Below the pieces are notes generated by a model. It ran no database searches. It worked only from the letters and a program-made list of their open reading frames with translations, and was not told the origin of the DNA. Of a DNA stretch of 64,000 bases, positions 50,870 to 62,623 are shown piece after piece. Positions within the stretch are counted from its first letter, which is position 1. Every line of letters begins with the position of its first letter. The translations under genes and the position numbers were made by a program. The DNA comes from Chitinophagales bacterium (GTDB lineage: Bacteria; Bacteroidota; Bacteroidia; Chitinophagales; Chitinophagaceae), in assembly GCA_021323755.1 (NCBI GenBank), contig JAJPKJ010000065.1, positions 124,001 through 188,000 of the forward strand. The letters run 5' to 3'.

Positions 50870-50912
50870 GCTCCCCCTGCTGGACTTGAACCAGCGACCC
50901 TCTGATTAACAG
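50870..50912 (-). repeat. Displaced tRNA-Asn 3' fragment (att repeat, left)
   Basis: 43 bases identical to the tRNA-Asn gene from the 5' side of the anticodon loop to the end of the acceptor stem (compare 62549-62591). The identity stops abruptly at 50913, where the 5' half of a tRNA would be expected. It is therefore an attachment-site scar, not a working tRNA. Confidence 0.9.
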
Positions 50913-51193
50913 CATGCCTCTGAGGTTAATCAATTTTAATCGTCTGAATCGGGACTTATTTTTAAGCAAAAAAATTATTGTTTGACAAAGCGAAATGATT
51001 TTCTACAATTCGAATTAGAAACTTTTATTTAACAATAATTTATAGTTCTATTTATTCCGATTGCAAGTCGCAAAAATCAACCTAACCACATTCAATTTTT
51101 GACCAAGGTCTGATTCCGGGGGAGCTTACATTCTTACAAAACGACATGAAGATTGTAATTTTCAAATATTTAAAGGAATAAAATCAAACCAAA

Positions 51194-52870
51194 TTATTTT
51201 CTGGATTTTTTTGTCTTCGTTTCTTGAAGAAGTCTGCTAATATTTTTTAAAATATTAATAACCTCTTTTGCTGAAATTGCAAATGAATCGATCGCTTCTT
51301 TTCGATTTTTTCTAATATATTCCATAACACTAAGCATAAGGTCTGCTTTGCTCTGTTGTTTTTGGTCCTTATTTCTGTCTGCACCAAATTTTTTTAAAAT
51401 TTGGTCAAACTCTTTTTTGAATGGTAAGGGATAATATTCTTCAAAATTTTTTTCGGAGAGGTTTATAAAATGTCTTTCAGGCCAATCAGGAAATTTTTCG
51501 GACATTTTTTTTAATACCTCTTTTCCTGTTGAATCACCATCCGCAATTATCCACGCTTTGTGTTTATACATTGGAGATGTATGTATGTATTTAAATAAGC
51601 TAAGAAAAGAGTCAAACATTTTTGAGATATTGCCCGTTCCAGCTGTTGATATGGTCCTTACTTTATTAATCAGCTCGGGCACAAATTCTGGGATCAAAAA
51701 ATCTCTCACAATTTGTTCTGCCGAAGCTTCTTCAAATAAAATATATGATGTGTATAGATCAAAATCAAATAGCTCATAACCAAGTTTTGTCAAGACCTCA
51801 AGCCGTTCCTTTGGTTTATTCTCAACCTCTTTAATTGTTGAAAAGGGGATTTTGTATTTTTTCCCTTTCGGAGCATCAATAAGATCCAGATCCGTAAAAA
51901 ATATTTTTGTTTCTGGGTGATTAGCGAGATATTTTAAAACAATATTTGAATGTGTCGTAATTATGAATTGATTATTTCCTGCCTTACTAATAATTATCTC
52001 AAGTAATTTTTTCAAAGCTTCAGGATGGATATCATTTTCTAATTCCTCTATAAGAAACAATTTATTGTTTTCAGTCAAAAGTATCGACAACAGCCCTAAT
52101 ATATTTGCAACTCCTTCCCCCATTGACTCTATATAAATTGTGTCCTTTATCCGAACGAACATCCCTAGTCTATCTCCACTATTTTGATCGCCCGGCACTT
52201 TTCCAGGAGCAAAGCCCAAAATGTCTTTACATATTGCTCTATACTGTTCGGTATATGGGTGGGTGCTATTTTCAAGGTTTTGAATTCGGGAAGAGAGGTT
52301 ATAAAATTGTTCTGCAATTCCATAGGCCGATTGCCGTCCTCCTTGATTGCTGTAATTACTTACCTTTCTTTTTGCAAGGAAGGGATAAATAAAATTGTCT
52401 TCGTCTTCCATAGATGGAAAACCTATGAATAAATTCATTTTGTCGTCTAATGGAATCTGACCTGAATTGTGAACAATCTTTATATCATTATCTAATAATG
52501 AAACCTTATAGTCATTCCCAGAGAATTGGAACTGCTCGAATTCCTTGCCTTTTCGATCATTCCATAACGCAAATACGATATCCTGTTTTTCCCCAACTGT
52601 TATCACAGGATTATCATTTGCCTGAAATAAAGAGTGTTCTTCTTCATTAATTTTATCCAATTGAATATGAATTTTGCCCGTCTTTTCTGTTTTGCGAACA
52701 TCTTCTTTACTAATACCAGTAAGACCATTTTGTAATTTTTGCAGTGCGCGAAGGATGGTGCTTTTCCCAGAATTGTTCGTACCGATAATAATATTTATGC
52801 CTTTTGAAAACTCTAATGAAGTTTTTGGAAAGCTCCGGATATTTAAAAGTTGTAATTTTCTTACATACAT
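51194..52870 (-). CDS. OLD-like ATP-dependent endonuclease (AAA ATPase + TOPRIM)
   Basis: A 558-residue protein with an ABC-type ATPase domain: Walker A GTNNSGKST (30-38), signature SMGEG (249-253), Walker B LFLIEELE (271-278) and H-loop His 307 in TTHSN. A TOPRIM nuclease domain follows, with Glu near 380 (ILFEEASAEQ) and DGD at 444-446 (IIADGDSTGK). This is the layout of overcoming-lysogenization-defect (OLD) nucleases and of GajA of the Gabija system. No GajB helicase is next to it, so it is a class 1, solitary type. The ATG at 52870 is preferred to 52903, which adds 11 residues before the conserved MYVRKLQL start. It is divergent from the HindIII-like gene. Confidence 0.85.
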   Translation of the reverse strand: MYVRKLQLLNIRSFPKTSLEFSKGINIIIGTNNSGKSTILRALQKLQNGLTGISKEDVRKTEKTGKIHIQLDKINEEEHSLFQANDNPVITVGEKQDIVFALWNDRKGKEFEQFQFSGNDYKVSLLDNDIKIVHNSGQIPLDDKMNLFIGFPSMEDEDNFIYPFLAKRKVSNYSNQGGRQSAYGIAEQFYNLSSRIQNLENSTHPYTEQYRAICKDILGFAPGKVPGDQNSGDRLGMFVRIKDTIYIESMGEGVANILGLLSILLTENNKLFLIEELENDIHPEALKKLLEIIISKAGNNQFIITTHSNIVLKYLANHPETKIFFTDLDLIDAPKGKKYKIPFSTIKEVENKPKERLEVLTKLGYELFDFDLYTSYILFEEASAEQIVRDFLIPEFVPELINKVRTISTAGTGNISKMFDSFLSLFKYIHTSPMYKHKAWIIADGDSTGKEVLKKMSEKFPDWPERHFINLSEKNFEEYYPLPFKKEFDQILKKFGADRNKDQKQQSKADLMLSVMEYIRKNRKEAIDSFAISAKEVINILKNISRLLQETKTKKSRK

Positions 52871-53024
52871 GATAAAACATATTTTGTTAAATAAATAATG
52901 CAAAGATTAGTTGCTTCTTACAAGTATCGAAATATGATTTCCGTTAATTGGAAAATTTGAATTACTCAAATTAAATTTGTTGTATAAGAAAACCATTAGC
53001 ATAGCTTTTTCTTAATTACAAGCC

Positions 53025-53032
53025 TATATTTG
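53025..53032 (+). promoter_or_regulatory. -7 box for the HindIII-like endonuclease
   Basis: TATATTTG is a full match to TAnnTTTG, 34 bases before the start codon at 53067. The 196-base divergent region also holds a small inverted repeat CAAATT-A-AATTTG (52967-52979) that could be an operator, but the sequence is very AT-rich, so chance is possible. Confidence 0.45.
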
Positions 53033-53066
53033 CACATATTTTAATAGCTTTTTTGACTCTTATTAA

Positions 53067-54077
53067 ATGAAAGAAGGTTTAATACATTTTTATGGCAAAG
53101 ATTTTACTACGGAAACGAGGATTTACTATTATGATTTTATTGAAAATTTTATTGCGGATAATGTAAAAGACTGGTCAAAGCCGCCCGAAACAGAAAAAAT
53201 TGCAGACGCTTTTGGAATTGTAATTAGCAAATTCGCAATTGAAGATTTTGCTTTTTTACTTTCACATACAGGGTATATTCCAGAATTTTATGAACATGAC
53301 TCTTCGCAGGAAACTCTTTACTCGAAACTTATTGAGGTCTTGGTTTGCGAATGGGCAAAAAGAATTGGTTTTAAAGATTCATATATACAAAAGCAAAAAG
53401 CAAGTAAAGAAGATGTTACAATCCAAATAAAAGATATTGTGATAGTGTGTGATGCAAAAAGTTATCGACTAGGACGAAGTCAAGCTGCACCGAATGTAAA
53501 AGACACGATCAAAAAAGCGGACTATGAAAAGTGGCAAGAATGGTGGCATTTAAGTGAACCGCATGTAGATTATGGTAAATTCAAATCTATTGGAGGGCTT
53601 ATAACTTTCCCGTCACTACATAGATGGAAAGGTTCGAGTGACGCTTATCTATATTCAACAGATAAGAATAAGCCCATTGTAATAATTTTTTATGAGCATC
53701 TTGCATACTTTCTACTTCGGGGTTATGATTATCAAATATTAATTAATCTGATAAATGATTATCCAAAATTATTTCCAGCTGCCTCAAAGAATCAACATTC
53801 TTATTTTGAAACGATTCTAAAAAATATGTTTATAAAAGATTGGGACGATTTCTTCGAGTATTTAAAACTTTTTGCAGAGAATGTAAAGGAAAAAGTAATT
53901 CACACGATTGACAGAATATCAATACATTTAGAAGAATCCAAGAAAAGAATTAATATGGAGATTGAAGCTATAGAAGTTAGTAAGTTAAAAGAATATTTAA
54001 TAGAATCGCGCTTGGAAAATGAATGTGGACAAATACTTAAACAACTTGAGAATATAAAGAAATTTAGGACCTATTGA
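53067..54077 (+). CDS. HindIII-family type II restriction endonuclease
   Basis: A 336-residue protein that matches HindIII over its catalytic core. Shared blocks are GYIPEFYEHDSSQETLYSK (HindIII: GILPEAIKPSSTQEKLFSK), Asp116 in KEDVTIQI (HindIII GDVIAL), VCDAKSYRLGRSQ with Asp129 and Lys131 (HindIII VADAKSFRLSRTA), and YEHLAYFLL (HindIII WEHLAILL). The PD-(D/E)xK residues are therefore present. Recognition of AAGCTT is possible but not certain, since specificity can shift within the family. The C-terminal 110 residues are helical and less similar. It is convergent with the DUF1156 methyltransferase gene, overlapping by 7 bases. Confidence 0.85.
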   Translation: MKEGLIHFYGKDFTTETRIYYYDFIENFIADNVKDWSKPPETEKIADAFGIVISKFAIEDFAFLLSHTGYIPEFYEHDSSQETLYSKLIEVLVCEWAKRIGFKDSYIQKQKASKEDVTIQIKDIVIVCDAKSYRLGRSQAAPNVKDTIKKADYEKWQEWWHLSEPHVDYGKFKSIGGLITFPSLHRWKGSSDAYLYSTDKNKPIVIIFYEHLAYFLLRGYDYQILINLINDYPKLFPAASKNQHSYFETILKNMFIKDWDDFFEYLKLFAENVKEKVIHTIDRISIHLEESKKRINMEIEAIEVSKLKEYLIESRLENECGQILKQLENIKKFRTY

Positions 54078-56401
54078 ACTTTTGATAATACTAGACGGGC
54101 AACTTTAGTCTCATTTGTGCAACTTCTTTTCGAAACGGTATTAAGTTCAAATCCACTAAGAATTGAATAAAATGCCAATAAACTTTCTTTATGTTCCATT
54201 CTAAAGGTAACTTTTGTTTTACTGTTGAATTTAAAATCATTGTAGATTAGGACTGCGCTTTCGAGTATGGTATTTTTTGTTTTTTCATTGAGATTTATTT
54301 CCTCCATAGTTCTCAAACGTGAATCAAGTATTAAATCATTCTCTTTTAGAATCTGCATATACGAGTTTTCCAATCCTTTTAAAGTCCCCTTCAGATTAGC
54401 TTCTAAGTATGATTTGGTAATCATATCCATTCTGCCGTTAATCCAATTTTCTAATCTTATCTTTTCATATGTCTTCATTATCTCATCATAAGCAAGTTCA
54501 TATGATTTGCCTGTGAGGGATACTTGCTTAACGGCAAGTGCCGCTAGGTAAATCACGATCTGACTATCTAACAATTCGCCACTTGACAGCATATTTCTTA
54601 AATCCAGAATATCATCTGAAATTGTTTTTATCCCATTCTTAATTTTAAGCAGTCTAAAAGTAATTACACCATTCAAAGCATCATAGGACATCGCTCTCGG
54701 TCGTGCAATTCTTTCCATTTCCACAGGAATGCAATTGGAAACAAAAAGTTTAGAGTTCCAAAAAGCATCCGCAATTACTTTCCAACCTTCAAAAGTCTTG
54801 TGCGAATAAAGCATTAACGCGCTACCATTGGGTGTCAGGACACGATTTATTTCACTTAAGACACCCGTCATTATAGATTGATAATGTTTGTGATTTTTGG
54901 AAGATTTTTTAGATAGCTCTACAATCGCTTCAAATTCATCTTGATTTTTCAAGTTGCTATTCTTTGAAAATGTTTTCTGTAAAATAATTTCAAACCAAGG
55001 CCTGAAGAACTCGCTCAACCCTGTATAATCTATAGAATCGTAATAAGGAGGATCAGTTAGAACAATATCTATGGAGTTATCTTTTAATTTTAAATTTGTA
55101 GATGAACCCTTAAGAATATTAATTTGATTTTGAAACTTAATTGCTTTGAATGTCGCGCATACTCTTTCAATTTTTGACTTCAAATTTGAACCGTTAAGGG
55201 AGAAAGGATTCACTTCAATAAAATCCCATTTCATCCCCACACCCGGTCCTGCTAAACTTCTACCTGTTTGTTCATTTTGGGAAATCCACATTGTAGCAAC
55301 ACTATTCCAGTCTACAAGAAATTCAATTAGTGAAGTAAGACCTAAGATAATTTGTTTTGCCGTCGGTTCTCCATACAAATTGACTAGGTAAGGATATTCC
55401 TTTGTGATTTCGTCAATGACTGTCAGTAAAACCAACAATTGCCTTTCACTAAAAAAATCTTGGGGCTTTTTTAAATCATATAGAGTAGGATTTATCACCC
55501 CGCTTTTGAGTTTTACTTCGTCGTTTGGCAGAAGGGAAGAAAGCCTTTGAATATCCTTATTAATTTCAGTTAAATAACCATTGAATAATGTTTTTTCTTT
55601 ATCTGAGACAATTTTGTATTTTTTCCCACCTGAATTATAGCATATCGCAAATGGCGAATACTTAAACTTGTCCTTCTTGCAATACTCCTTAATGTCTTTG
55701 AATGAATTGATCGTTTGACATTTATTGCATACAAATTCCTTTTGCAGTCTTTCTTCTTTACCGAAGCTATTTTCTATTTTTAATTTTCCATTTTTTTCGG
55801 CGATTCTTAAAGGTTTATTTTTGCGTTTGCTTAAATATTCAAATCTTCTTAAATCCAAATCAAAACCACAAGATTTACATTTTGCAACTTTCGACCAAAA
55901 AATGACATATGGATTTATTCCATTAATCGAAAAATATTTTCCGATTCTTCTTTCTGCTCTCTCAATAATTTTGTGACCTGCTTTGCGTAATTTATCATCG
56001 TAATTTTCTATCGATACGGAATTGAAAATTGTTTCTTGTAATAAAGATGCAACAGGATTCAGCTCAGATGAAAAAGTTTTAAAACCGAGCCTTGCACTTT
56101 CAAATGGAATAGAGCCACCTCCGCTGAATGCATCCAAAACACTTAAATCACCTGTATTGTATTTTTTTTTAAACTCGTTAAAAGTTCGTTGTGATGGATT
56201 AAGTTCGGAAAATAGTTGCGTGTCCACCAAATTATCATTTTCACTATTTCTAAATAATATTTCACGGATCAACAGAGAACGCATTGTAGAAATTGGTCTT
56301 CGTGCCCACCAAACTTTGATAGTATTATAATGATCTTTACGAACATACTTCTCCTTGACTCCTATTTCACTAATTAGTTTGTACGTAAGTTTCGCCAGCA
56401 T
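54071..56401 (-). CDS. DUF1156-family DNA methyltransferase
   Basis: A 776-residue adenine- or cytosine-amino methyltransferase. The DUF1156 signature is YNTIKVWWARRPISTMRSLL (about 25-44). SAM-binding motif I is VLDAFSGGGSIPFESARLG (88-106); the catalytic motif IV is DPPYYDSIDYTGLSEFFRPW (450-469). A zinc ribbon is likely: CKSC at 175-178 and CNKC at 225-228. DUF1156 methyltransferases are usually 850-1000 residues and paired with large DUF499 ATPases; this one is shorter and instead faces a HindIII-like endonuclease, so it may protect that enzyme's sites. An unusual inverted repeat sits in its promoter. Confidence 0.85.
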   Translation of the reverse strand: MLAKLTYKLISEIGVKEKYVRKDHYNTIKVWWARRPISTMRSLLIREILFRNSENDNLVDTQLFSELNPSQRTFNEFKKKYNTGDLSVLDAFSGGGSIPFESARLGFKTFSSELNPVASLLQETIFNSVSIENYDDKLRKAGHKIIERAERRIGKYFSINGINPYVIFWSKVAKCKSCGFDLDLRRFEYLSKRKNKPLRIAEKNGKLKIENSFGKEERLQKEFVCNKCQTINSFKDIKEYCKKDKFKYSPFAICYNSGGKKYKIVSDKEKTLFNGYLTEINKDIQRLSSLLPNDEVKLKSGVINPTLYDLKKPQDFFSERQLLVLLTVIDEITKEYPYLVNLYGEPTAKQIILGLTSLIEFLVDWNSVATMWISQNEQTGRSLAGPGVGMKWDFIEVNPFSLNGSNLKSKIERVCATFKAIKFQNQINILKGSSTNLKLKDNSIDIVLTDPPYYDSIDYTGLSEFFRPWFEIILQKTFSKNSNLKNQDEFEAIVELSKKSSKNHKHYQSIMTGVLSEINRVLTPNGSALMLYSHKTFEGWKVIADAFWNSKLFVSNCIPVEMERIARPRAMSYDALNGVITFRLLKIKNGIKTISDDILDLRNMLSSGELLDSQIVIYLAALAVKQVSLTGKSYELAYDEIMKTYEKIRLENWINGRMDMITKSYLEANLKGTLKGLENSYMQILKENDLILDSRLRTMEEINLNEKTKNTILESAVLIYNDFKFNSKTKVTFRMEHKESLLAFYSILSGFELNTVSKRSCTNETKVARLVLSKVQ

Positions 56402-56425
56402 TCTATAAATTTACACTAAAAGTAC

Positions 56426-56433
56426 CAAACTTA
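56426..56433 (-). promoter_or_regulatory. -7 box of the DUF1156 methyltransferase
   Basis: Read on the minus strand this is TAAGTTTG, a full match to TAnnTTTG, ending 24 bases before the ATG at 56399-56401. Confidence 0.5.
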
Positions 56434-56444
56434 AATTTTAAAAA

Positions 56445-56463
56445 AAAGCTTAATTTAAGCTTT
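56445..56463. promoter_or_regulatory. Inverted repeat of two AAGCTT sites in the methyltransferase promoter
   Basis: AAAGCTTAA, one T, then TTAAGCTTT: a perfect 9-bp inverted repeat holding AAGCTT at 56446-56451 and 56457-56462. It covers the expected -33 region of the methyltransferase promoter (-7 box at 56426-56433) and lies 10 bases before the start codon of the divergent 88-residue gene. Binding of a protein here, or methylation of the AAGCTT sites, could control both genes. Confidence 0.55.
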
Positions 56464-56473
56464 AATTTTATTT

Positions 56474-56740
56474 ATGCAAATATCATTGGAAATAAAAAAA
56501 AGAAATCGCGATTTCGGAATTATCACTTGGCCTTATGCATACGACTTTGAAATAAAGACAATGTTTGATCAACAAGAAATCATTGATATTGAGTTTGGAA
56601 ATAAAAATTTTATAAGGCGAAAAGTTTCGTACAAATATCGAAGAATTTCTATTGGAAAAAAGAGATTGCAATCCTTAGATAAAAAGAAAAACTTCATATT
56701 AACCAAGAATAAAGACCGTATTCAAATTATTGCAAAGTGA
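56474..56740 (+). CDS. Hypothetical basic 88-residue protein, divergent from the methyltransferase
   Basis: An 88-residue lysine-, arginine- and isoleucine-rich protein: MQISLEIKKRNRDFGIITWP, then a beta-like middle (QQEIIDIEFGNKNFIRRKVS), a basic stretch (YRRISIGKKRLQSLDKKKN) and a final strand DRIQIIAK. No helix-turn-helix is obvious, and I recognise no family. Its position opposite the methyltransferase, sharing the AAGCTT inverted repeat, is where restriction-modification controller genes often sit, but that role is only a guess. Its composition fits the AT-rich island. Confidence 0.55.
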   Translation: MQISLEIKKRNRDFGIITWPYAYDFEIKTMFDQQEIIDIEFGNKNFIRRKVSYKYRRISIGKKRLQSLDKKKNFILTKNKDRIQIIAK

Positions 56741-56854
56741 GATAACAAATTTACTTCGTTTTAATCAGAATTCATTTAGAGGCACGAGCCTAAATGTAAT
56801 TTTCAATTGCATTTATTGCGTCGTATAAACAATATTCGGCATTAATGATTTTGC

Positions 56855-57562
56855 CTAGTAAGATTGTGATTGTTTCACTTCAAATGTTTGTGTTTTTTCG
56901 ATTTCGTTCAATATTTGTTTTAGCGATAAGTTTTTGAAAGCAATATGAATTCCTAAGTTCTTGTTTGCAATTAATTTACCCCAGAGTGGTTGGTCGGCGA
57001 AGATGGAAATGATGATTGGTGGGATGCCGGCTTTTAGTGCTGCGGCAATGGTGCCGATGCCGCCGTGGATGATCGCGGTTTTGCATTGGGGGAAGAGCCA
57101 TTCGTGGTTTGCGTTTCTTATGATAAAAAGATTTTCGTGGCGCGGCAGTTTTGGAAGTTCGGACCACATCTGGCAAAAAATGAAACAGTGATTCGTTGTT
57201 GCGATCAGTTCAATGAGAATGCTGGATAATAATTCCGTATCTGGAATGGGAATGCTGCCAAAACCAATGTAGATCGGTCGCTCGCGATTTTTCAACCAAG
57301 TTTCCAGACGGACGGTCAATTGATGACTTATATTATTTTTTCTTTTCGATTCCGGGATGGTTAGAAAACCGGTGATTTGAATTTCCGCCGGCCATTCCTT
57401 TGGTCTTGCAATGAGTGATAGCTTGATCGCATGACGGTTCAGGATCTTTTGCTCAGTGATATTTTTGAGGATGGATCTTTTTAGCGGCGGAAGCTGCAAG
57501 GTTTCGCGGTGCGTATTAATATCTTTTTTGTTTAAGCACCAATAGATATAACGGATAAGCAC
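56855..57562 (-). pseudogene. C-terminal fragment of a UGT-type glycosyltransferase
   Basis: A 235-codon frame that matches only the C-terminal, nucleotide-sugar-binding half of GT1 glycosyltransferases (sterol/macrolide glucosyltransferase type). Visible are RPIYIGFGSIPIPDTELLSS, KTAIIHGGIGTIAAALKAGI (the H-G-G-x-G-T donor motif) and FADQPLWGKLIANKNLG. Family members are about 400-450 residues; the N-terminal acceptor-binding half (around 180 residues) is missing and not found upstream. It is thus probably a remnant, though an ATG does begin the frame. Base composition is less AT-rich than the neighbouring defence genes, hinting at a different origin. Confidence 0.65.
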
Positions 57563-57787
57563 ATACGTAAATAAATTTTAACCCGGTGAATTTAAAAAAT
57601 CAAATGCTGCAAAAGGAAATTCCCGTGTAGGAATTGCGGGAACGCTGAGTTGTAGGATCGCCCATTTCTTTTTTAATTTTTCTGCGATAGAATACACCCG
57701 TGCAAGCATGAGCGGGCGTGGTGTTTATAAAGAACTGACGAATAAAAATGGCGCAGAATATCGTGCGTGCTGCAACTGAATTTTAAA

Positions 57788-58102
57788 ATGAAACAGTTTC
57801 ACGATAATTACGGGTATAATTTGCAAAATGCACTTGCGAAATACCCGAGCAAAGAAATGGACTTTGAGCAGTCGAGGAATACACTGATGCGATCTTTGGA
57901 AAAGGGAGAAAGAGCATCTATAATTCTTGGAACAAACGGCGTGGGCCTGAAAGTTTTTATTGATGCGGCACCGCAATTCAAATCGGTCAATTTTTATGAT
58001 GAAGGAATGAAACGCGTGAATGGGCAAACGCTTTCGGAAAAAAACGGAATAGGACAGTCTGAAAAAAAGTGTCGAGGAAACAGGAGCAGAAAAAGGAAAT
58101 GA
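57788..58102 (+). pseudogene. Mobile-element-associated protein, probably frameshifted
   Basis: A 104-codon frame beginning MKQFHDNYGYNLQNALAKYP and containing SIILGTNGVGLKVFIDAAPQ then FKSVNFYDEGMKRVNGQTL. It resembles small proteins I associate with Bacteroidota mobilizable elements, without a firm name. The frame changes character after an A7 run near 58066-58072 and ends KCRGNRSRKRK. Another frame past that run reads a more plausible Glu/Lys-rich tail leading towards KKKGQRIS, though it has one stop at 58135-58137. A frameshift plus a nonsense change is therefore likely. The short stretch before it (57563-57787) holds no gene. Confidence 0.45.
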
Positions 58103-58207
58103 ACGGCGAGGAGGAAGAAGGCGGGGGAAGAAAATAAAAAAATAAAAAGAAGGGACAGCGGATTTCATGAAGACAGGAGACAGCAACGAGATATAAATGC
58201 CAATTCT

Positions 58208-58537
58208 TTGAACGTAAAAAATGTACCATATAAAAATTATAGATTCCCGGAAGATACGGTGCAATTGATTTGCCATTTTGTGCAAGTGGCAGAAGATGAT
58301 GTGCGGATAAATGCATATCGTATCAGTCTCTATGCGGCGCTCGTCATGCATTGTAGCAGGAAAAAGTTCGAATGCCTACTACAGGTTTTAAGTCGTGAGA
58401 TCATGCCACTGTGTAAGATTTCCGGGACTGCGACTTATCACCGGACTATAAAGGATCTGCACAATTTTGGATATATAAAATATGAACCGTCGTTTAATCA
58501 TTTTTTGGGGAGCCTAGTGTACTTGATGGAATTGTGA
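58208..58537 (+). CDS. Small protein of Bacteroidota mobile elements (winged-helix-like)
   Basis: A 109-residue frame from a TTG at 58208; no ATG is available in frame nearby and the frame is open further upstream, so the start is uncertain. The body, RINAYRISLYAALVMHCSRK then CKISGTATYHRTIKDLHNFG and YIKYEPSFNHFLGSLVYLM, has a winged-helix look. It resembles a family I know from mobilizable elements in this phylum (the pattern K-x-x-x-K-A-T-Y-H-x-x-x-x-x-L-x-x-F-G-Y-I). Its role may be in replication or regulation of the element. It is followed 11 bases later by the HTH pseudogene. Confidence 0.55.
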   Translation: MNVKNVPYKNYRFPEDTVQLICHFVQVAEDDVRINAYRISLYAALVMHCSRKKFECLLQVLSREIMPLCKISGTATYHRTIKDLHNFGYIKYEPSFNHFLGSLVYLMEL

Positions 58538-58548
58538 AATAATGAGTC

Positions 58549-58827
58549 ATGGGAGATATTATTATTGTGAGTGAGGCGCAATTCAAAGGTTGGATCAAAG
58601 AAGCGATCCGCGAATATTTTGAAAATGCGGAGTCAACGAGGTTAGTTGAAAAAGAAAATATGGAGCCGCTTGTTTCCAGGAAAGTGATTGCCAATTTTCT
58701 CTGAATTTCGCTAGTGACTTTGCATGACTGGATGAAAAGGGGATTGCCATCGCACAAGCAAAGAGGAAGAGTTTATTTTGTGAAGAGTGAGGTGTTGAGG
58801 TTTGTTAAGAACAAGAGCAAAGAATAA
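58549..58827 (+). pseudogene. Helix-turn-helix (excisionase-like) gene with in-frame stop
   Basis: A 93-codon frame encoding a HTH_17/MerR-like DNA-binding protein broken by one TGA at codon 52 (58702-58704). The two halves read VSRKVIANFL and ISLVTLHDWMKRGLPSHKQR, which together form the usual helix-turn-helix (x-F-L-x-I-S-x-x-T-L-x-x-W-x-K-x-G-L-P). The stop replaces the turn residue, where related proteins often have Arg or Gly, so a single base change from CGA or GGA explains it. Frame is otherwise intact to the TAA at 58825-58827. Such proteins are common in mobilizable elements and may direct excision. Confidence 0.75.
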
Positions 58828-58829
58828 AT

Positions 58830-60416
58830 TTACACAGTAGTTAGCTCGAGTCTTAGCAAACTGTCTTTAATTGTTTTAATCGTATCAGGATCTAACCTGT
58901 GTAATTTAAAGCCCGCTTTCCACTCAGAAACGCCATCATAAATACAGCTGAGAAGAAAATTGAATCTTGAATTATTATCTGCAAGCTCCATCCAATAAGG
59001 ATGGTTTACATTAATAACCACATTAATTCTCTTTGATCCACCAAGTGGTCGAACAATTAAATATGGGTCCCAAGGTGAACTATCTTCGCTTAGTATTACT
59101 ATAATCGAAACCCCTTCCAAAATATATTTATAATCTTTATGCTTTGCTTTCAATAATCTCTTTATCGTTTCTTCGTTTGTTTTTATGATTGCCTTTTCCG
59201 GTAAGACAGATTTATTTAATAAAACATCTCTGAATGAATCAGTATTTAAATTGGTTATGACTGTTTCAATTGCTGACCCGAAATCGAAATTACTTTCTGT
59301 TGGTCCAGTGTCACCACTTATTCCTCTGGCTTTATTAGGTGTGTTTGCTTCCTTTTTATAATCTGCTAACTTTTTGAAGAGTTCTTTGTCCAATTGATCT
59401 TCTTCGTCATCTGCAAAAAGTATTTGATCCTTTGTATGACTCACACCAAACCTTTCATCTAAATTTAGTTCTCCAGTAAGCCTTTGATTTGTCAGGTCGT
59501 TTCGTCCACCATCTTCTGATCCAAAAAGTAATGAATTTCTATAGTTTTTTGGATATCCCACTATGACTCTATCAGCCTGAATTAGTGAAAATCCGCCTGA
59601 AGCTTTAGAACCACTTTTTAGTATGCCCGCCCAGCCTTCAACTAATTTACCGTTCACTTTAAATTTTAATTGCCTTTTAAACTTCTTTCCTTCGACATCC
59701 GTAAGAAGACGTTTATCTATATCTTCCTGGCTCCATGTTAGCGGACTTCCTTGAAATTCCAAATACAACGTCTCTTTTTGTAAATCCATGCGATAAATTG
59801 ATTGCAAATATTCGACGCTATTTTTTGCTGTTTGCGAATTGATAGTTCTTACTAGATCTGTAATTGTTAATGTGGTTCCATGTTCCTCACTCGAGCATGG
59901 CCTACTCGTAATTTTTAGGTTCGGCCTAAATTGCTGAATCGGTTTTCCAGGTGACTGTTTTTTATGTTTTTGATAATAAGTTTCTTCGTCTTTCAGAATT
60001 TTATGAAGGTCAACAGATATAGTTAACATTTTACGAGATCCCTTTTGCGTAGTTTCAATTGACCAAGCATTGCCAAACCAAAAAGCTGCTGTTTTTAGAC
60101 CAAGACCATATTTAGATCGCTCGTTTGAAATAGCTGGTCTTTTCCCTAAGGTCATAGCATTTTGTAAATCTTCTTCATCCATTCCGTACGCGTTATCTTT
60201 GATTCTTACGAAGCCATATTTATTCCTTGTGTTATTTGCATAGGATATTTCGACAGTTAGCATATCTTGCTTTTTTTTATACATTCCATCAAGGTCTACT
60301 CGGTGATTTCGATAAGATTGGGTGCTGTTATCGATAAATTCTGCGAAGGCATACCATGTTTTATATGGAAGTCTTTTGTAAGATTCTAAAATTTCATAAC
60401 CTAAAATTAGTTCCAT
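58830..60416 (-). CDS. MORC/MutL-like GHKL ATPase of a restriction-type operon
   Basis: A 528-residue cytoplasmic ATPase of the gyrase-Hsp90-histidine kinase-MutL fold. N-box: WYAFAEFIDNSTQSY (Glu26, Asp29, Asn30). Second motif DNAYGMDEEDL (74-84). ATP-lid GLGLK at 104-108 in SKYGLGLKTAAFWFG. An S5-like domain follows (HGTTLTITDLVRTINSQT and SASGGFSLIQADRVIVG-like strands, the latter with conserved GxRxxI-type features), then an acidic region (DEEDQLDKELFKKL) and an unassigned C-terminal 170 residues. Prokaryotic MORC-like ATPases are known to be encoded beside restriction-modification genes (Iyer, Abhiman and Aravind). Here it is the last gene of a three-gene operon, one base after the nuclease gene. 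Confidence 0.85.
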   Translation of the reverse strand: MELILGYEILESYKRLPYKTWYAFAEFIDNSTQSYRNHRVDLDGMYKKKQDMLTVEISYANNTRNKYGFVRIKDNAYGMDEEDLQNAMTLGKRPAISNERSKYGLGLKTAAFWFGNAWSIETTQKGSRKMLTISVDLHKILKDEETYYQKHKKQSPGKPIQQFRPNLKITSRPCSSEEHGTTLTITDLVRTINSQTAKNSVEYLQSIYRMDLQKETLYLEFQGSPLTWSQEDIDKRLLTDVEGKKFKRQLKFKVNGKLVEGWAGILKSGSKASGGFSLIQADRVIVGYPKNYRNSLLFGSEDGGRNDLTNQRLTGELNLDERFGVSHTKDQILFADDEEDQLDKELFKKLADYKKEANTPNKARGISGDTGPTESNFDFGSAIETVITNLNTDSFRDVLLNKSVLPEKAIIKTNEETIKRLLKAKHKDYKYILEGVSIIVILSEDSSPWDPYLIVRPLGGSKRINVVINVNHPYWMELADNNSRFNFLLSCIYDGVSEWKAGFKLHRLDPDTIKTIKDSLLRLELTTV

Positions 60417-60417
60417 A

Positions 60418-61224
60418 TTAGAGTTTTTGAATTATATATTCATTGTCTAAATTCTTTCCGATCTGCAAATAAAAATCAGAGGGGATATTATGATTTGCTA
60501 GTTTAAGATATGTGGTTCTTGATGTGACTTTGATTAAAGTAGCCTGAAAAGGTTCCATGTCAAACTTAATTTCAAATGTTGATGGTAAATCCTTCAGAAA
60601 ATCTTTTTTTAAAATTCTATAATGTTGCTCATCTATGTATTCAATTTTGGATGAATTTGTTAATTCATAGGGATAATCACCGCCAAATCGAAATCCTTCG
60701 TAAGCGTAGTTTAATCTTTTGTAAACTTCGAGTACACAAATTTTCAATTGTTTTTTGTGATTGTAAAATTTTTTAAAAACGGAATCCGAATAATCGTCTA
60801 AAACAATAATTAAGTCCGGGGCATAATTGGAAAAACATTTTAAAAAAGAAGATTTCTGATCATGATTTATTTGGTTGGTGCTAATTAAGAAATTAACTAA
60901 TTCGTTAGGTTTTATTTTAGGATTACTAAAACAAGTTATTTGATCTAAAGTGTGTTGAGTAGGGGACTTGCATAATTCAACTTCAATTATAACCCATTTT
61001 TTAAATGATTTTGAAACTAGTAATAAATCGGGCTCATATTTTATCCCTGGAATTTCATCGCATGTCAGTGGGTGCTTAAATTTAAAAACATTATAGTTTG
61101 TAAATATTGATTTCGCGTATCGCCAAAGTTTGTTTTCAAAATCTGGCTCAGAATATTTTTTTATGCTCGCAATAGGAGAATAAAGTTGAGTCGATGTAGA
61201 ATGTGTAATTAAGATTTGTGCCAT
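60418..61224 (-). CDS. Putative PD-(D/E)xK-like nuclease of the MORC-like operon
   Basis: A 268-residue protein of no family I can name. Residues 60-96 look like a PD-(D/E)xK core: GIKYEPDLLLVSKSFKKWVI then IEVELCKSPTQHTLDQI, that is Pro65-Asp66, a beta turn, and the E81-V-E83 motif in place of the usual (D/E)-x-K, with a Gln-containing helix after it. A Glu at about 30 fits the first-helix position. The C-terminal part is beta-rich with FGGDYPYELTNSSKIEYID. It overlaps the methyltransferase gene by 16 bases and ends one base before the ATPase gene, so it is tightly coupled. It is the likely effector; the activity is inferred from motif and context. Confidence 0.6.
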   Translation of the reverse strand: MAQILITHSTSTQLYSPIASIKKYSEPDFENKLWRYAKSIFTNYNVFKFKHPLTCDEIPGIKYEPDLLLVSKSFKKWVIIEVELCKSPTQHTLDQITCFSNPKIKPNELVNFLISTNQINHDQKSSFLKCFSNYAPDLIIVLDDYSDSVFKKFYNHKKQLKICVLEVYKRLNYAYEGFRFGGDYPYELTNSSKIEYIDEQHYRILKKDFLKDLPSTFEIKFDMEPFQATLIKVTSRTTYLKLANHNIPSDFYLQIGKNLDNEYIIQKL

Positions 61225-62105
61225 TTTAAAAATCTACCTTTTGATCCGTTAATGTAATCAGTCTCAGGTTCAATAGATATCCACTTTCTGCTTAGTTTTT
61301 CGGTAATTTCACCAGTTGTATTACTTCCTGCAAATGGATCAAAAATTAAATCCCCTTTATTCGTTAATAAATTAATAAAGAATTCAGGAATTTCTTCAGG
61401 CATTCGTGCAGGATGGGGTTTAATCTGTTTTAGCTTGCAATATTTCGAATAATTAGAACTGGATTTTGTACTCGACAAAATCAAAACATTTGCCGGGATT
61501 GCTCCTTTATTTTCTTTAAAAAATGATTCTTTACCAATTTGGTGATCAGATGGGTGAGAACCGGAATTATATTTGTTGTTTTTCAACAATCGCTTCATTG
61601 AACTACTATATTCAGTGAGCACCTTTCTATTATTTTCATTCGGATTTGCTGTCGAAGACATCCACCAAATATTTGTATAGGAATCCTTCACTCGAGTTCT
61701 TTCAACATTCACCCATTGCGCTGGACTAGGCAACTTTGCAGAATTGTGCCAAATGAATTGTTGACACAGATGATATTCGCCATGTTCTTCAAATGACAAT
61801 AAAGATTTTAATGGCAAAGTTGACATTTCAGGCAAACCCTTAACCCAACTATTGCCAATCTCTATTCCAATAGAACCCTTTGGTGTTAAAAATGGTCTTA
61901 TTTTTTTTGAAATTAATTTAAGCCATTCTAAGTATTCATCGCCGTCCAAATTCCCATATTTTTTTTTTCTTACAAGTGGAAATGGAGGAGACGTAAAAAT
62001 CAAATTGATTTTCCCTTTATACTTTTCAAACTTTTTCCCTTCTAAAAACTTTCCTATTTTGCCTTCGTAAAAAATCCCATTTTTTGTGCGATAAGCAATT
62101 TTCAT
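61209..62105 (-). CDS. N4-cytosine-type DNA methyltransferase
   Basis: A 298-residue beta-class methyltransferase: catalytic motif IV comes first (LIFTSPPFPLVRKKKYGNLD, with TSPPF at 38-42), then the target-recognition region, and last motif I (LIFDPFAGSNTTGEITEKL, about 253-271). The TSPP(F/Y) form with this order is typical of N4-cytosine enzymes such as those of PvuII-type systems (an adenine target cannot be excluded). The TTG at 62129 adds 8 residues; the ATG at 62103-62105 is preferred. It is the first gene of the operon with the nuclease and MORC-like ATPase and should protect the host from them. Confidence 0.88.
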   Translation of the reverse strand: MKIAYRTKNGIFYEGKIGKFLEGKKFEKYKGKINLIFTSPPFPLVRKKKYGNLDGDEYLEWLKLISKKIRPFLTPKGSIGIEIGNSWVKGLPEMSTLPLKSLLSFEEHGEYHLCQQFIWHNSAKLPSPAQWVNVERTRVKDSYTNIWWMSSTANPNENNRKVLTEYSSSMKRLLKNNKYNSGSHPSDHQIGKESFFKENKGAIPANVLILSSTKSSSNYSKYCKLKQIKPHPARMPEEIPEFFINLLTNKGDLIFDPFAGSNTTGEITEKLSRKWISIEPETDYINGSKGRFLKWHKS

Positions 62106-62511
62106 TCTGGTTTTAAACTTTAATCGCAAGATAAATTAAAAATAATGCAAAATCTTTCAATTATTATTCAAAACAAATTTATAAGTATTGTTATCAATCG
62201 ATAAGGGTTACACAGCCTGCTATAGAATTCCTATATTAAATTACTAGAAACGGCATCGTATTGTTTCCGTAATGAATAAATGCTTACACTTATGATAATT
62301 CTGCAATTCGAATTGCTTTTGGTACTGATATGCAATTCAACAATCCGAGGCAAACTCACGGATATGCATAACCGTAAATTCCAATAAATAAATCTTATTT
62401 TTAAAATTTTTGGTGTAATTTTTGATTGGCTTTAATGATTTTTATTTCTTTAACCGCTCTCTGCATTTCGGGTTTTTCGCGTTTTGTGCAAATTCTATGC
62501 AAATAACAAAA
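62106..62511. promoter_or_regulatory. Intergenic region at the island end, about 400 bases
   Basis: No gene is seen. It should contain the methyltransferase promoter; read on the minus strand, TAAATTTG at 62178-62171 is a full -7 match 66 bases before the start. A 14-base palindrome GCAATTCGAATTGC lies at 62303-62316. The position next to the intact tRNA is where an integrase gene would normally be, but none is present. Confidence 0.5.
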
Positions 62512-62540
62512 AAAGCAATTACTTTAGTTTGTAATTGCTT
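62507..62540 (-). terminator. Terminator of tRNA-Asn (island-borne)
   Basis: A perfect 10-bp stem, AAGCAATTAC/GTAATTGCTT, with loop of 8, followed on the minus strand by a run of seven or more Ts. It starts 9 bases past the tRNA-Asn 3' end and lies inside the island, unlike the hairpin by the displaced fragment. Confidence 0.85.
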
Positions 62541-62548
62541 GATAACCA

Positions 62549-62591
62549 GCTCCCCCTGCTGGACTTGAACCAGCGACCCTCTGATTAACAG
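62549..62591 (-). repeat. att repeat within tRNA-Asn (right)
   Basis: The second copy of the 43-base direct repeat (see 50870-50912). It makes up the 3' half of the intact tRNA-Asn gene, from the anticodon loop to the discriminator base. Confidence 0.9.
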
Positions 62592-62623
62592 TCAGATGCT
62601 CTAACCAACTGAGCTAAGGAGGA
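62550..62623 (-). tRNA. tRNA-Asn (anticodon GTT)
   Basis: A 74-nt cloverleaf read on the minus strand. The acceptor stem TCCTCCT pairs with AGGGGGA (one G-T), with discriminator G. The D arm GCTC/GAGC, the anticodon stem TCTGA/TCAGA with GTT at 62587-62589 (loop CTGTTAA) and the T arm with GGTTCAAGTCC are all present. CCA is not encoded. Its 3' half is repeated at 50870-50912, so this gene has been rebuilt by island integration. Confidence 0.95.

Follow-up and report, generated by a model that had tools for sequence, protein, structure and literature searches.

What could be the function of a compact operon in which a DNA methyltransferase (MTase) and an ATPase of the MORC family stand together with a small protein that matches no described family, and in which no helicase gene is found? 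This question is raised by a 64,000-nucleotide stretch of a Chitinophagales bacterium (assembly GCA_021323755.1, contig JAJPKJ010000065.1, positions 124,001 to 188,000; hereafter the window), where three minus-strand genes encode, in order of transcription, an MTase, a 268-residue protein and the ATPase (Table 1). The operon is predicted to specify an ATP-gated variant of a restriction-modification (R-M) system with a MORC clamp in the place of the helicase, a reading given a probability of roughly 0.6. The clamp would be the ATP-using subunit of the system and the nuclease-MORC pair would carry out restriction, with the clamp step, the reading of the mark and cleavage all putative. This reading rests on gene order and packing, on the recurrence of the trio in two viral contigs and on the persistence of the pair and of an MTase before it. 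It rests also on the MORC identity of the ATPase, on the fold evidence for the nuclease and on the fusion of a nuclease relative to a RAMA domain, as well as on the precedent of VcSduA and the other R-M and OLD/GajA-like genes of the surrounding island.

All three reading frames are intact. The MTase gene and the gene for the 268-residue protein overlap by 16 bases (61209-61224), and a 1-base gap (60417) separates the stop of the latter from the ATPase ATG at 60416. These coordinates are exactly those given in the initial annotation and are confirmed by the open reading frames (ORFs). Two further contigs, both viral (L043 and L044), carry homologues of all three genes in this order, and hence the three-gene operon exists and is not a chance arrangement. 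The proposal that the genes form a single unit is likewise supported by their packing and by this shared order. A scan for promoters and terminators gave signals no better than in shuffles.

The window's ATPase clade has five complete members, namely the window, L027 (genome G334), L036 (genome G759), L043 and L044. The nuclease is encoded directly upstream of the ATPase in 5/5, and a same-strand DNA MTase directly precedes the nuclease in 4/5, the exception being L036. On the two viral contigs a PvuII-type MTase, the nuclease and the ATPase follow one another as in the window, with a 32-base overlap between MTase and nuclease genes in L044; a scan of viral contigs with three MTases returned the L043 and L044 contigs and no other. 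In L027 the pair is preceded by a 414-residue MTase of a different type, with a 751-residue and a 76-residue protein further upstream, and in L036 by a 401-residue PbeA-like SF2 helicase (L036:5019-6224). The MTase is thus an exchangeable part of the unit (PvuII-type in three loci, the 414-residue enzyme in L027, a helicase in L036), and the absence of a helicase, borne out at the window operon, does not extend to the L036 relative of the pair. The initial annotation had held that regular separation of the homologues in other genomes would speak against a unit: the nuclease and ATPase genes are unseparated in all five loci, but the MTase is exchangeable and two distant nucleases have no MORC match in the stretches fetched around them. 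The 751-residue protein of the L027 operon (L027:6332-8587) carries GHKL-like motifs by eye (Pfam HATPase_c_3 E 0.094) and is perhaps the paraMORC1 of Iyer 2008.

ATPase searches matched 9/295 genomes of the class (window included), 5/318 of the order, 3/244 in the class of G759 and 1/100 in the family of G334, and the L027 ATPase matched 5/395 genomes of the phylum; these genome sets overlap one another and the thresholds differ between searches. Among viral contigs, 7 loci and then 10 (three new) were recovered. An isolated 146-residue C-terminal piece of a pair-type MORC in genome G1015 (L064:6077-6517), with no nuclease match adjoining, is probably a remnant.

The ATPase belongs to the MORC family, judged by its motifs and predicted structure, and its activity is accordingly a predicted one. 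Pfam reports HATPase_c_3 (E 8.8e-21), and the GHKL boxes are recognisable as N (E26FIDN30), G1 (D74NAYGM) and G2 (Y103GLGLK). The S5 motif, G275FSLIQADRVI, agrees with the published MORC motif GhXhhpXXRhl, described as a mark of the family (Iyer, Abhiman and Aravind 2008, PMC2292703). An AlphaFold2 model based on 14 sequences reaches a mean predicted local distance difference test (pLDDT) score of 79.7, and its best Foldseek match is MORC2 with DNA (9cdj, E 1.8e-15). SMCHD1 comes second in the list, MORC3 seventh and MORC4 eleventh, and from rank 4 on Hsp90-type proteins of similar score are interspersed. The boxes, the S5 motif and the MORC2-DNA match uphold the earlier naming of a MORC-like GHKL ATPase. 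The NCBIfam MzaB model scores 38.9 bits, far under its 850-bit cut-off. The restriction enzymes BbrUII and HgiDII, which weakly match the L044 ATPase and the GHKL protein of L022, were set aside, their GHKL nature not being established from the papers, whose passages dealt with MTases.

The 268-residue protein is probably a nuclease of the PD-(D/E)xK fold with E-x-E in place of E-x-K, a label that its model and the fold searches support but do not prove. All five sequences in the alignment share E26, E30, K50, D66, W77, E81-V-E83, H91 and Q95, and E26, D66, W77, E81, E83, H91 and Q95 stay invariant (7/7) when two distant relatives are included. The AlphaFold2 model is confident over about residues 21-140 and mostly below 50 pLDDT over residues 184-268; its secondary-structure order (H26-40, E44-48, E58-63, E67-71, E77-83, H89-100, E137-142) fits a PD-(D/E)xK core. 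Against the PDB the best match of the model is NucS (2vld, probability 0.99, E 0.013), and the eight top matches comprise three NucS/EndoMS and five R2 retrotransposon proteins. Among viral models (BFVD) gp54 of Bacillus phage G, a protein with no name, scores best (E 6.5e-6), with a protein annotated as a PD-(D/E)xK nuclease at rank 6. Structure prediction, which the initial annotation had proposed with the lack of a nuclease fold as the refuting outcome, thus yielded a PD-(D/E)xK-like core; the likeness stands on this core and on weak NucS/EndoMS matches, the canonical lysine being missing, and the description of the nuclease as atypical is confirmed by the glutamate in its position. Profile comparison gave no significant relation to gp54, none of whose neighbours in the stretch covered is annotated as GHKL and most of whose neighbours have no function name, and a relation to DUF4420 was looked for and not found.

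With the nuclease as query, G334 holds the sole clear pair beyond the window. One search matched 4/149 genomes at E 0.01, including the window and two short matches, and another 2/295, the window and one short match. A profile search matched 12/198 genomes, comprising the window, G334, the distant relatives G554 and G545 and eight partial matches. The matches in G166, G302 and G421 were rejected as short stretches (E 0.002-0.007), and in the regions fetched for them (L023, L028 and L029) neither ATPase query gave a match at the E 0.01 threshold. The eight partial matches cover only about residues 118-185 of the nuclease and were likewise rejected; six (L072-L077) are thioredoxin-like ORFs by eye, the other two being in G562 and G497. 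In the stretches fetched around the G554 and G545 relatives (L079 and L080) neither ATPase query found a match, so the nuclease domain family is broader than the pair. These two (L079:4977-5915 and L080:4950-5945) are stand-alone E-x-E nuclease relatives whose nuclease part falls under no Pfam family, and that of L079 is fused to a C-terminal RAMA (restriction enzyme adenine methylase associated) domain.

The MTase can be assigned by sequence to the M.PvuII family, beta class. Its motifs follow the beta-class order, with TSPPF preceding FDPFAGSNTTG, and it matches Pfam N6_N4_Mtase (E 1.2e-36) and PADLOC MTase_II PDLC03323 (E 2e-82). The closest solved relative by sequence is M.PvuII (PDB 1boo, E 7e-74), and identity reaches 43.5% with the MTase of the PvuII plasmid and 57% and 59% with those of L043 and L044. 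Its earlier naming as an N4-cytosine (N4C) methyltransferase holds as to the M.PvuII-type enzyme, the N4C product being presumed from the family alone. PvuII-type MTases also adjoin other partners, namely R.PvuII on the PvuII plasmid, a restriction endonuclease and a helix-turn-helix (HTH) regulator in Providencia, and a helicase/AAA operon in Aurantiacibacter, so this MTase is a module not exclusive to the present system.

Copies of a 43-bp repeat, one of them the 3' part of a tRNA-Asn gene, flank the operon, which therefore sits in an 11.7-kb island (50870-62591). This stretch is a defence island. Besides the operon it holds a 569-residue OLD/GajA/PtuA-like AAA ATPase (51194-52903) and two convergent genes (53067-56401), for a HindIII-type endonuclease (Pfam RE_HindIII E 3.3e-44) and a 776-residue DUF1156-containing MTase, which by sequence constitute a second R-M system. 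On the plus strand at 58546-58827, convergent with the end of the ATPase gene, an HTH frame that is excisionase-like by eye is broken by an in-frame stop and is likely a mobile-element remnant. In L043 a tyrosine integrase directly precedes the operon and phage-type genes, including one peptidase S49, follow some kilobases on. L044 belongs to a 56-kb contig that also carries, on the same strand, genes for a terminase and an SPP1-type portal. The operon is therefore found both in an island and on viral contigs.

Table 1. Genes of the operon and boundary features of the island, in window coordinates.
Feature	Position	Strand	Basis
MTase gene	61209-62105	minus	ORF 61209-62129, ATG at 62105, 298 aa
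268-aa probable nuclease gene	60418-61224	minus	ORF list
MORC-family ATPase gene	58830-60416	minus	ORF list, 528 aa
tRNA-Asn (gtt), presumed island attachment site	62549-62623	minus	ARAGORN
43-bp direct repeat copy 1 (3' part of tRNA-Asn)	62549-62591		repeat + pattern search, 100% identity
43-bp direct repeat copy 2, other island edge	50870-50912		repeat + pattern search

Several observations weigh against the ATP-gated R-M reading. The 268-residue protein has no significant Pfam match and is unnamed by any family library scanned (NCBIfam and PADLOC included), and the canonical lysine of D...(D/E)xK is replaced by E83 in 7/7 sequences (5/5 close members). Its model, built from five sequences, has a mean pLDDT of 64.9; the NucS match has a template modelling (TM) score of 0.27 (query) or 0.31 (target), no match in the PDB fold search is as good as E 0.001, and from rank 9 the list includes unrelated proteins. 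In two of the five clade members the sequence departs from the strict S5 motif at a single position, and in L036 the pair is not preceded by an MTase gene on its strand. The trio is carried by only two viral contigs, and 50,697 phage records contained no match to the L044 ATPase, which also argues against wide phage carriage. Finally, CAGCTG, the candidate target of the M.PvuII-type MTase, is not avoided in the window (12 found vs 7.5 expected).

The E-x-E in place of E-x-K in 5/5 close members would also suit a defence without cleavage, in which the MORC protein compacts or entraps DNA and the 268-residue protein is a dead PD-(D/E)xK relative that binds DNA or reads a methyl mark. BamHI, however, works with an E-x-E core, and the invariance of E26, D66, E81, E83, H91 and Q95 across seven divergent sequences fits catalysis better than simple binding. 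Eukaryotic MORCs are described as entrapping and condensing DNA, and the modification-linked PbeABCD system as stopping virus replication without cutting (PMC6459918), both consistent with this alternative, which is on balance considered unlikely. Slightly less credible again is the view that the MTase acts on its own, as a marking or regulatory gene, and that the pair forms an independent defence module blind to methylation, activated for instance by DNA ends or replication intermediates. The exchangeability of the MTase and its kinship with enzymes that adjoin other partners favour such independence, whereas its place directly before the pair in four of the five loci and the gene overlaps in the window and L044 speak for a link.

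That the three genes have no joint function, being neighbours by chance or the remnant of a decayed island, is very improbable: the adjoining HTH frame is broken and a scan of seven further ORFs of the island, none of them from the operon, gave no integrase match, but the same order recurs in two viral contigs, the frames are intact and a distinct clade keeps its partner. A more specific form of the ATP-gated R-M reading is put forward only tentatively, as doubtful though less so than these alternatives. It holds that the operon is a minimal phage-mobile machine, whose MORC clamp would, unaided by any helicase or translocase, sense the missing N4C mark and license a separate E-x-E nuclease.

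Unlike in the window operon, the ATPase of the three-gene R-M systems CglI and NgoAVII is a DEAD-family helicase-like protein, and their nuclease is of the PLD type. These systems are nevertheless alike in joining an MTase and an endonuclease to a separate ATPase subunit, and CglI has MTase, nuclease and ATPase subunits and an R2H2 complex (PMC5737866, PMC4267653). The window ATPase is also homologous to that of one further known system (457/515 profile columns, hhalign probability 100, E 4.5e-70). VcSduA (paraMORC3-Shedu) combines GHKL ATPase and PD-(D/E)xK nuclease domains, both of which are needed for defence: E27A (ATPase) and K557A (nuclease) abolish phage defence, and in the authors' view the need for both activities spares the host (PMC12137116). 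VcSduA is a single chain with DUF4263, with no linked MTase mentioned in the parts of that paper covered here, whereas the window encodes two proteins; none of the operon proteins matches DUF4263 in Pfam, and the fused domains that define Shedu are absent. With PvuII the operon shares the MTase family, but it lacks a PvuII-type endonuclease and an HTH regulator. Assignment of the pair to Pbe was considered and rejected: the L036 helicase resembles PbeA, but PbeB has 66 residues and PbeC is AAA/SMC-like (PMC6459918), and hence the nuclease-MORC pair is not Pbe.

The closest likeness in arrangement is to the neighbourhoods without helicase of Iyer 2008, in which MORC lies beside DNA methylase or restriction endonuclease genes; they are a minority of the conserved MORC neighbourhoods, a subset adds paraMORC1, and MORC systems are found in mobile-element hotspots (PMC2292703). 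The E-x-E nuclease family and the PvuII-type MTase partner are unnamed in section 3 of that work, a comparison that covers its text and legends, and its Figure 2 may show a similar operon. No paper with experiments on a MORC restriction system of such make-up from a prokaryote was found among the open-licence matches listed, which is not proof of absence, and a biochemical study of a prokaryotic MORC was not found among the literature matches listed. In the parts covered, PMC12707154 and PMC10853773 mention neither MORC nor GHKL, and PMC5512222 has MORC once, in its references. The view in the initial annotation that this is not a characterised system therefore stands as regards experiment, although helicase-less MORC neighbourhoods were mentioned in 2008.

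The molecular and biochemical aspects of prokaryotic MORCs were described as poorly understood in a 2021 paper (PMC8011034). Both the nuclease-MORC pairing and its occurrence on viral contigs are results of the present analysis, and the function is a prediction. If the minimal-machine form of the reading were true, phages would use the operon as a weapon against competitors, and the MORC clamp with which eukaryotes silence transposons would have in it a simple prokaryotic equivalent. The 268-residue protein offers a named partner for purification with a prokaryotic MORC, and the helicase-free trio would allow asking whether a MORC clamp alone recognises non-self DNA and triggers a nuclease. 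In this way the system bears on what MORCs did before becoming chromatin silencers.

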